DNA from: Flavobacterium sp. 9AF
Lineage (GTDB): Bacteria; Bacteroidota; Bacteroidia; Flavobacteriales; Flavobacteriaceae
Assembly (NCBI RefSeq): GCF_902506265.1
Contig: NZ_LR733556.1
Coordinates: forward strand, 2,212,515 to 2,276,514
Reading direction: 5' to 3'
DNA: 64,000 nucleotides
The translations under genes and the position numbers were made by a program. A model generated the notes under the pieces. The model saw only the letters and a list, made by a program, of their open reading frames with translations. It was not told the DNA's origin and did not search any database. Below, piece after piece: positions 13,147-15,449 of the stretch (the first letter of the stretch is position 1; each line of letters begins with the position of its first letter).

Positions 13147-13512
13147 CTAATCCTCCTCTCGATGCACTTTCTGAAAATCAAATGCTGGTTTGCAAATCGC
13201 TAAATATTCACAAGGTAATTCAAATGGGTTTGAATATTGTACTCTAGTATTCGCTTCAATTTTTATGGATTGACCCGCTTCTAAGATTAGGGTTTCACCT
13301 TCAATAATGAATTGTTTTTTACCAGAGATAATGTAAGTATATTCTTCAAATTCTGGAGTTTGAAAAGGTTCACTCCAACCTGGAGGTGCCACCATATGTG
13401 CAATAGAAATAGCATGATTATTTGTGGCAACAATACCGTGATGTTCTTCTATTAATTTACCATCGGTAGTAGGAACTACAAAAGGTTCTTTTTGTAGGGT
13501 ATATTTTTTCAT
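13147..13512 (-). CDS. Small cupin-domain protein
   Basis: A single-domain cupin of about 121 residues. The barrel core is seen in FEEYTYIISGKKQFIIEGETLILEAGQSIKIEANTRVQYSN, which matches the two cupin motifs with a G-rich turn. The usual metal-binding histidines of motif 1 are not obvious (EEYTYI instead of HxHxxE), so it may not be a metal enzyme. Start 13512 (MKKYTLQ) is chosen. A longer start at 13533 would read MPRND from the inverted repeat at 13519-13543 and is unlikely. It is not long enough to be 3-hydroxyanthranilate dioxygenase. Confidence 0.75.
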   Translation of the reverse strand: MKKYTLQKEPFVVPTTDGKLIEEHHGIVATNNHAISIAHMVAPPGWSEPFQTPEFEEYTYIISGKKQFIIEGETLILEAGQSIKIEANTRVQYSNPFELPCEYLAICKPAFDFQKVHREED

Positions 13513-13518
13513 TTTGAT

Positions 13519-13543
13519 GTCATTGCGAGGCACGAAGCAATCT
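13519..13543 (+). repeat. Left inverted repeat of the GIY-YIG cassette
   Basis: GTCATTGCGAGGCACGAAGC followed by AATCT. It matches the reverse complement of 13880-13904 at 24 of 25 positions. Internally ATTGC and GCAAT can form a short stem, like REP-type elements. Sequences of this TCATTGCGAGG type recur in many bacterial genomes. Confidence 0.9.
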
Positions 13544-13554
13544 CCTCATTATAA

Positions 13555-13860
13555 TTAAACAATCATTATATTTTCAATTTCGCTAAATAAATTATTCCAT
13601 TTAGGATTCGTTTTTTCTATTAAGCCTATTTTTGTAGCTCTTGAACCAGCTTTAAGTTGTTTTTCTCTTGCAATAGCATCTCCAATCTGCTGAAATTGCT
13701 CAAAATAAACTAATTTATTCAAATTATATCTAGAAGAAAATGAATTTTCATATCGTTTTTCTATGTGTTCCAAAATCCTTTTTGGCAAATTACTTGTAAC
13801 TCCGATGTATAAAGTAGTATTGTTTTTATTGGTAATTATATATACGAATCCAGGTTTCAT
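13555..13860 (-). CDS. GIY-YIG nuclease, single-domain (UPF0213/URI type)
   Basis: A 101-residue protein made almost entirely of one GIY-YIG nuclease domain. VYIITNKNNTTLYIGVTS carries the paired VYI and YIG motifs. The catalytic Arg and His follow in NLPKRILEHIEKR, and the metal-binding Glu is in AIAREKQLKAGSR. The family cuts DNA strands; partners and targets of these short flavobacterial versions are unknown. The gene is framed by inverted repeats at 13519-13543 and 13880-13904, 11 and 19 bp from its ends, which suggests the nuclease acts on those repeats. Confidence 0.9.
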   Translation of the reverse strand: MKPGFVYIITNKNNTTLYIGVTSNLPKRILEHIEKRYENSFSSRYNLNKLVYFEQFQQIGDAIAREKQLKAGSRATKIGLIEKTNPKWNNLFSEIENIMIV

Positions 13861-13879
13861 TTGTATGAAGTTTAGTTTT

Positions 13880-13904
13880 AGATTGCTTCGTTCCTCGCAA
13901 TGAC
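13880..13904 (-). repeat. Right inverted repeat of the GIY-YIG cassette
   Basis: AGATTGCTTCGTTCCTCGCA followed by ATGAC, the inverted partner of 13519-13543 with one mismatch. It ends 6 bp from the stop codon of the ATPase gene. Confidence 0.9.
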
Positions 13905-13910
13905 TAATTA

Positions 13911-15449
13911 TTACTTCTTTAGCATTTTCATTAAAACGCCCATGGCTCCTCTAATAAATGTGGCACTGGTTAATACTTTTACAACCCCTTTGGTAACTGT
14001 ATTAGTTGTAGAAGAACTTCTACTAGACGAACTAGTTTTTTTTGCTTCTTTCTCTTTTTGTTTTTTTTCTTCTTCTTTTGCAGCAGCTTCTTGTGCTTCT
14101 TCTATTTTTTTACCTAAAATTTCATAAGCACTTTCTCTGTCAATTACTTCGTTGTATTTTTTTGTTAATTTAGATTTAGAAATGGCATCATTAATTTCTG
14201 TTTCTGTTAATACATCCATTCTACTCATTGGCGCACGAAGCATTGTTGCAGCTAAGGGTGTCGGAATTCCTTTTTCATTCAACGCTGTTACAAATGCTTC
14301 TCCAATTCCTAAAGAAGTAAGAATTTCATCGGTTTTGTAAAATTCTGAAATTGGATAATTTTGAGAAGTTTCTTTAATTGCTTTTCTATCATTAGCTGTA
14401 AAAGCACGTAATGCATGTTGGATTTTTAACCCCAATTGAGCCAATACACTACTGGGAACATCCATAGGATTTTGTGTAATGAAATATATACCAATGCCTT
14501 TGGAACGAATCAATTTTACAATGGTTTCTATTTGATCTAGTAACACTTTGCTTGCCTGATCAAAAATCAAATGCGCCTCGTCTATAAAAATAACCAACTC
14601 AGGTCTTCCAGCATCACCTTGTTCAGGCATTGTATTGTAAATTTCAGCCAATAAGCTCAACATAAAGGTAGAGAAAAGTTTCGGTCTGTCTTGAATATCT
14701 GTCAAACGAATAATGTTGATATACCCATTCCCATTTTGATCAATACGCATTAAATCGTCAACTTCAAATGATTTTTCTCCGAAAAAGAGTTCGGCTCCTT
14801 GTTGCTCTAGTTCAATAATTTTTCTTAAAATAGAACCCGTAGAGGAAGTAGAAATTCGTCCATATTCTTTTTCAAATTCTTCTTTACCTTCTTCAGTCGA
14901 ATATTGAAGTGCTTTTTTAAAATCTTTTAAATCTAGAAGTGGAATTTGTCTGTCATCACAGTATTTAAAAATAACCGATACTACTCCAGATTGGGTATCA
15001 TTTAAATCTAATATACGTGAAAATAAAACCGGACCAAATTCAGAAACAGTGGCACGCAATCGAACACCATTTTGTTCTGAAATAGTCATTAATTCTACAG
15101 GAAAACCTTTGGTTTCATAAGGTAAAGTTATTTTTGCATGCCTTTCTGTTATAAAAGCCTTTTCTTCTCCAGGAACTGCTACACCAGAAAAATCTCCTTT
15201 AATATCCATCATTAAGACAGGAATACCATTTTGCGATAATTGTTCTGATAAAACTTGAATAGTTTTTGTTTTACCGGTACCTGTTGCACCTGCAATGAGA
15301 CCATGTCGGTTTAACGTTTTTAAGGGAATGTTTACATGGGTATTTGGGATAGGTTGTCCATCCAAAATGGCACCACCAAGCGTAATAAAATCCCCTTTAC
15401 AAGTATATCCTTCAATTATATGTTTACTGAAATCTTCTGTTTTGCTCAT
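13911..15449 (-). CDS. HerA-like ATPase (DUF853)
   Basis: A 512-residue P-loop ATPase of the HerA/FtsK group (DUF853, helicase HerA-like C-terminal). Walker A is GATGTGKTKT near residue 54 and Walker B is LVIFIDEAH near residue 285. TQNPMDVP is a typical sensor-region motif. The C-terminus has a long charged coiled coil (EEAQEAAAKEEEKKQKEKEA), a Ser-rich linker and a short hydrophobic/basic end. The role in DNA processing is inferred from the fold; the physiological function of DUF853 is not settled. No NurA-like partner is next to it. Confidence 0.9.
   Translation of the reverse strand: MSKTEDFSKHIIEGYTCKGDFITLGGAILDGQPIPNTHVNIPLKTLNRHGLIAGATGTGKTKTIQVLSEQLSQNGIPVLMMDIKGDFSGVAVPGEEKAFITERHAKITLPYETKGFPVELMTISEQNGVRLRATVSEFGPVLFSRILDLNDTQSGVVSVIFKYCDDRQIPLLDLKDFKKALQYSTEEGKEEFEKEYGRISTSSTGSILRKIIELEQQGAELFFGEKSFEVDDLMRIDQNGNGYINIIRLTDIQDRPKLFSTFMLSLLAEIYNTMPEQGDAGRPELVIFIDEAHLIFDQASKVLLDQIETIVKLIRSKGIGIYFITQNPMDVPSSVLAQLGLKIQHALRAFTANDRKAIKETSQNYPISEFYKTDEILTSLGIGEAFVTALNEKGIPTPLAATMLRAPMSRMDVLTETEINDAISKSKLTKKYNEVIDRESAYEILGKKIEEAQEAAAKEEEKKQKEKEAKKTSSSSRSSSTTNTVTKGVVKVLTSATFIRGAMGVLMKMLKK

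Follow-up and report, generated by a model that had tools for sequence, protein, structure and literature searches.

A GIY-YIG nuclease gene between inverted REP-like palindromes in Flavobacterium: a candidate enzyme for CGTC-tagged repeats

Here we report a 386-bp cassette from Flavobacterium sp. 9AF, located at positions 13519-13904 of the 64,000-nucleotide stretch of DNA that was analysed (hereafter the window), in which one minus-strand gene lies between two inverted arms. The arms (13519-13543 and 13880-13904) are 25 nt each and 24/25 complementary, with 336 nt between them; both represent inverted copies (24/25) of GTCATTGCGAGGNACGAAGCAATCT, and their 20-nt core gave 0 chance matches in shuffles of the window. 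The left REP-like palindrome, GTCATTGCGAGGCACGAAGCAATCT (plus strand), is a class A repeat with a perfect-core match that carries its unpaired GTC tag outward and its ATCT tail inward, and the right palindrome, GTCATTGCGAGGAACGAAGCAATCT (minus strand), is inverted relative to it. Between the arms lies a single-domain GIY-YIG nuclease gene of 101 codons (13555-13860, minus strand; Pfam GIY-YIG, E=5.6e-16). The neighbouring genes, both on the minus strand, encode a cupin-domain protein (13147-13512; Pfam Cupin_2) and a HerA-like ATPase (13911-15449; Pfam HerA_C, 4.3e-174, and synteny). The first-pass annotation had described a unit made up of a single-domain GIY-YIG gene and 25-bp inverted ends identical at 24 of 25 positions, fitted precisely between two genes at 6 bp from one stop codon. 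The coordinates and Pfam assignments confirm this description, and the gap between arm and gene is 6 bases on each side, to the HerA-like stop codon (13911) on the right and to the cupin ATG (13512) on the left.

All of the catalytic-type residues are present in the window protein (Y6, Y17, R27, H31, E65 and N84), and these residues, together with G19, are invariant among 73 family sequences, which thus share the motifs and the conserved Arg, Glu and Asn of the GIY-YIG superfamily. The AlphaFold2 model (pLDDT 94) has a GIY-YIG fold, in agreement with the Pfam assignment (PF01541), and the HUH/catalytic-tyrosine Y1 domain of RAYTs (PF01797) is absent from the protein. The solved folds nearest to the model are those of Slx1, a branched-DNA nuclease, UPF0213, the UvrC N-domain and I-TevI. 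The GIY-YIG protein is under purifying selection, with dN/dS across the family mostly 0.02-0.1. Weak family matches to group I intron and homing endonucleases were also obtained; a defence-system identity was considered and rejected, as PADLOC gave just one weak homing-endonuclease match.

It had also been claimed that the repeat ends can themselves fold. A lone 25-mer arm folds only weakly as DNA, into a 5-bp stem of -2.4 kcal/mol that is not above shuffles (z about -0.6 to -0.8), which qualifies this part of the claim. The hairpin is supported instead by the stem variants, in which pairing is kept (ATTGC/GCAAT, ATTAC/GTAAT, ATAGC/GCTAT, ATTCC/GGAAT and ATTTC/GAAAT). Stem positions 3-5 vary between classes with pairing retained and, because pairing was itself a requirement of the scan, it is the diversity of pair types that is informative for the stems. 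Across 156 loci the tag of the best palindrome was TGTC in 96, CGTC in 36 and AGTC in 24 (the window arms carry TGTC on the left and AGTC on the right), and the first two stem pairs were A-T and T-A in 136 and 132 loci, respectively. Many of these loci have 8-bp stems and 4-5 nt loops, the class in the window has a 5-bp stem and a 10-nt loop, and the tail outside Bacteroidota is mostly CCA.

Copies of the palindrome are dispersed well beyond the cassette. The 9AF genome holds 12 copies of the class A repeat at up to 3 mismatches, mostly single, and gene-less pairs spaced 20-50 bp, sought in 150 genomes and occurring in 17, comprised 45 inward and 0 outward pairs. The orientation of the cassette is that of an inward pair with the gene in the spacer; around its homologues, the nearest repeats on both sides were inward in 46 loci and outward in 17. 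At three loci of the 9AF genome (L012, L013 and L017, around 1501-1520), palindrome copies closed as GTCATTGC..GCAATGAC lie exactly within a longer dispersed repeat (AGCCCTGATGG.AGCGGCATCCT ... AGATATAGCG.ACAGCAGGAAATAGCT). In a congener (G130:C1:2391401-2670418), all 18 class A copies of the genome are on one strand and clustered in ~0.28 Mb, an arrangement that differs from that of the other genomes.

The association between gene and repeat extends across the genus, and was assessed with 93 GIY-YIG homologues and their flanks from 150 congeneric genomes, in which about 11 palindrome classes were distinguished. A local inverted repeat with a score of at least 15 within the 250 bp flanks was found for 57/93 GIY-YIG genes and for 1/402 control ORFs drawn from twenty random 20-kb stretches, and the sole positive control proved to be itself a GIY-YIG gene (G124:C2:214939). 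This test was independent of the class motifs. Counts of class proximity, for which the motifs were defined on the same data as tested, were compared by Fisher tests: a palindrome class lay within 350 bp of 91/93 GIY-YIG genes vs 28/378 random control ORFs, and the same class lay on both sides of 70/93 vs 1/378. Chance pairing of gene and repeat is ruled out by the random, neighbouring and shuffled controls. The first-pass annotation had suggested a search for the repeat with and without the gene, and had regarded absence of the repeat pair around all other GIY-YIG homologues as fatal to its reading; the search returned this genus-wide association as well as gene-less copies, and the pair is present around nearly all homologues. 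The partnership of gene and repeat is thus observed directly.

No other gene consistently adjoins the repeats. RAYT-type (Y1) transposase genes, present in all 17 genomes tested, were rejected as the partner, since 2/28 of them lay near one of these repeats, no more than random ORFs. Several Y1 transposase genes (L256, L257, L263, L265 and L269) are flanked by inverted palindromes of another kind (e.g. TTGTAGGGCCGGATTTCAATCCGG), and therefore both systems coexist in the same genomes. Within the GIY-YIG superfamily, UvrC, a polymerase-epsilon-like fusion and a YTGQT-type family from the same genomes lack such repeat flanks. In G117:C4 (L311), YTGQT-type genes are repeated every 369 bp and have no REP flanks; they are similar to those of a tRNA cluster in another genome (L310 1018-3731; G139:C1 about 1850500-1853200), where seven near-identical tandem 374-bp units each hold a small GIY-YIG gene. 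A further GIY-YIG branch (YYVYILxCxDxSLYVGVTSD; L280 and L282) is flanked by another palindrome type (TTGTCAGGTCGAGCGCAGTCGAGA) beyond the 11 classes counted here.

Repeat class matches protein clade. On a tree of 90 proteins, repeat class requires 16 changes vs 55.3 when shuffled, with 0/200 shuffles as low. Several genomes (G000, G117 and G124 among them) carry several paralogues, each beside its own class, and the 9AF genome itself has three further GIY-YIG loci that each adjoin a different palindrome class: GTCATTCCGACGAAGGAGGAATC at one, GTCATTTCGAC..GAGAAATC at a second, where the gene is broken, and TGTATCGAGAAC at the third. Host background is rejected as the cause of the matching because classes coexist within one genome, each with its own paralogue. 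The class-clade match, the two-sided inverted placement and the controls also make it very improbable that the repeats serve the gene as terminators or regulatory hairpins, or that chance insertion placed them next to a gene to which they are functionally unrelated: short intergenic palindromes commonly act as transcription terminators, which favours the first version, and the chance-neighbour version is already refuted by the controls.

The cassette has recently moved, or been converted, independently of its surroundings. Between the sister species G000 and G061, the cassette genes at the same site differ at 3/59.5 synonymous positions (dS 0.052), in contrast to dS 0.578 for the cupin gene and 0.809 for the HerA-like gene (p=2e-11), and identity rises stepwise to 97-98% over the cassette. 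Nor are synonymous sites frozen across the family, since the other pairs measured mostly had dS 0.16-1.0 (dN/dS 0.02-0.1); the cassette therefore has a history of transfer or conversion that its neighbours do not share. This dS contrast is a single case, and other syntenic pairs look vertically inherited. Elsewhere in the family, cassettes 85-90% identical occur in unrelated surroundings (L022/L024 and L030/L031).

Presence and absence also vary between species. At three loci in relatives (L055, L057 and L059), the HerA-like and cupin genes are adjacent or close to each other and the cassette is absent, which answers in part the earlier suggestion to look for empty sites between these genes; neither an exact empty junction nor a target-site duplication could be read at these three loci, the spacers being too different in length and sequence. 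The corresponding intergenic region of one further genome (L061, G012:C4) holds a different GIY-YIG-like ORF without repeats. Two single repeats of the 9AF genome are missing from the matching intergenic regions of G061, regions which differ by more than the repeat. The gene is usually present in few copies per class per genome, its distribution is patchy and pseudogenes occur (L004).

Repeat numbers follow the gene, with exceptions. The class A repeat was found in 29/29 congeners with a close homologue (median 16 copies) and in 65/121 without one (median 1; p=4e-11 for the difference). Copy-rich genomes without a close homologue do exist (G103 with 52 copies and G099 with 36). Decay of the repeats in gene-less genomes was considered as a sign of activity and discarded, as the fraction of perfect copies per genome was not lower there (median 0.56 vs 0.51, p=0.54). 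Both the copy-rich genomes and the equal perfect-copy fraction count against the explanation that we favour below.

Beyond the genus, a scan with a 13-protein alignment against 84,980 species yielded 80 named loci from Bacteroidota, Proteobacteria, Chloroflexi, Omnitrophota, Patescibacteria, Nitrospirae and others. Flanking inverted repeats with a score of at least 14 were found at 50/79 loci from many phyla vs 7/311 neighbouring ORFs. The loci include Bradyrhizobium and Neisseria gonorrhoeae, and in the latter (L207) the GIY-YIG gene lies a few bp from CGTCATTCCCGCTCAGGCGGGAATCC, which we take to match the neisserial dRS3 consensus. We know of no previous link between dRS3 and a GIY-YIG gene. 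The literature surveyed, which comprised few subscription papers and no preprints, contained no earlier link of GIY-YIG/COG2827 proteins to REPs, REPINs, dRS3 or CGTC palindromes, and the link was absent from the papers on CGTC-tagged repeats that were checked.

The explanation that we consider probable is a partnership of the RAYT/REPIN kind, in which an unrelated GIY-YIG nuclease would recognise the hairpin matched to it and cause that hairpin to be copied or maintained. The cassette would be the gene-bearing member of a REP-like family of mobile repeats. Its nuclease would recognise palindromes of its own class by the unpaired YGTC tag, the A-T, T-A start of the stem and the short tail, and would nick or cut them; the form recognised is most likely a hairpin in exposed single-stranded DNA. 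Copying by host replication and repair might then carry the palindrome to other sites, or to the matching site in a related genome; most copies would be inward-facing pairs, and a few would include the gene between their arms. Gene-less single and paired copies would be the non-autonomous members of the family, on which the nuclease acts in trans. We infer that the repeat is bound and cleaved, that it is integrated and that repair takes this route, and likewise that the nuclease drives the spread of the repeats rather than following it. To our knowledge GIY-YIG enzymes hydrolyse DNA and none is known to rejoin it, so that the integration step would be without precedent.

The main alternative, which we consider unlikely, makes the gene a free-standing homing endonuclease parasitising REP pairs that spread by other means: the nuclease would cut gene-less pairs, repair would copy the gene into them, and the specificity of the nuclease would shift to suit the repeat class at hand. 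The structure of the cassette, an inward pair with a gene in its spacer, is what such an element would leave; the weak matches to homing endonucleases and the persistence of repeats in genomes without a close gene are in keeping with it, as is the exchange or conversion at the same site between sister species (dS 0.052 vs 0.58-0.81), where cutting would be the presumed trigger. It accounts poorly for the far greater number of copies in gene-carrying genomes and for the few gene copies per class that a genome has as a rule, and it calls for another agent of spread, for which no consistently adjoining gene, the Y1 transposases included, presents itself. More doubtful still is a structure-specific enzyme useful to the host that processes hairpins or cruciforms of its own repeat class, for maintenance or copy control, with linkage keeping enzyme and substrate matched. 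Slx1 and UvrC are among the nearest solved folds and purifying selection is strong, as would be expected of such an enzyme, but patchy presence, paralogues with different classes, pseudogenes and independent movement of the cassette resemble a mobile element and not a housekeeping function.

With the pairing of nuclease family and matching repeat recurring in many bacterial phyla, this nuclease becomes the leading candidate for the enzyme that the widespread CGTC palindromes have lacked, be it for their spread or for their maintenance. A wider proposition, to which we give an even chance, is that of a pan-bacterial form of mobile DNA in which a GIY-YIG nuclease of ~100 residues alone, without HUH, DDE or recombinase chemistry, spreads tagged palindromes and explains many of the most widespread intergenic repeats of bacteria, including dRS3-type and other CGTC REPs. 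CGTC REPs are found in the genomes of many phyla and have been described since 2013 as having no dedicated enzyme; with a matched nuclease, one small protein and one oligonucleotide are enough to test directly how they arose. If the partnership is real, two unrelated nuclease folds have converged on the same association with short palindromes, and it would open a way to study how repeats drive genome plasticity in groups ranging from Flavobacteriia to Neisseria and Bradyrhizobium.

Among known systems, the repeats appear from their sequences to fit the CGTC REP super-family, which was described by Di Nocera et al. 2013 (PMC3733652) from Bacteroidetes, Proteobacteria, Neisseria and Bradyrhizobium as repeats that "apparently lack a dedicated transposase", with a CGTC or TGTC tag (CCTC as a variant), a stem of 8-9 bp beginning A-T, T-A, a loop of 4-5 nt, a short tail that is often CCA and a predominance of HH dimers. 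The repeats studied here share the unpaired CGTC-type tetranucleotide at one end, the AT stem start and the short, often CCA, tail, and their gene-less pairs are all inward, which we take to be the HH arrangement of that paper. Unlike the CGTC REPs as published, they come with a dedicated GIY-YIG gene, and many Bacteroidota classes, with 5-bp stems, 9-10 nt loops and CTC or CAC tails, widen the definition. With I-TevI-type free-standing homing endonucleases the cassette shares the GIY-YIG catalytic domain and same-site exchange between related genomes, but its 101-aa protein has no extra DNA-binding domain, no intron is present and dispersed palindromes flank the gene. UPF0213, the UvrC N-domain and Slx1 share the fold of the window protein and belong to a different sequence subfamily, and UvrC and the other tested GIY-YIG genes of these genomes have no REP flanks, unlike the cassette gene. 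RAYTs with their REPs and REPINs (Nunvar 2010; Bertels and Rainey 2011, PMC3116915) differ in that the enzyme is HUH/Y1 rather than GIY-YIG and the tag GTAG rather than YGTC, and the repeats studied here are not neighbours of the Y1 genes that these genomes carry. In other respects the likeness to RAYT/REPIN systems is close: a small nuclease gene adjoins short tagged palindromes of a class particular to it, the unit that is dispersed is the inverted pair and a genome may hold several matched types of gene and repeat. The parallel with RAYTs under a different nuclease chemistry, first drawn in the first-pass annotation, is thus supported by the flanking pairs, by the tracking of class with clade and by the existence of a REP super-family in want of an enzyme.
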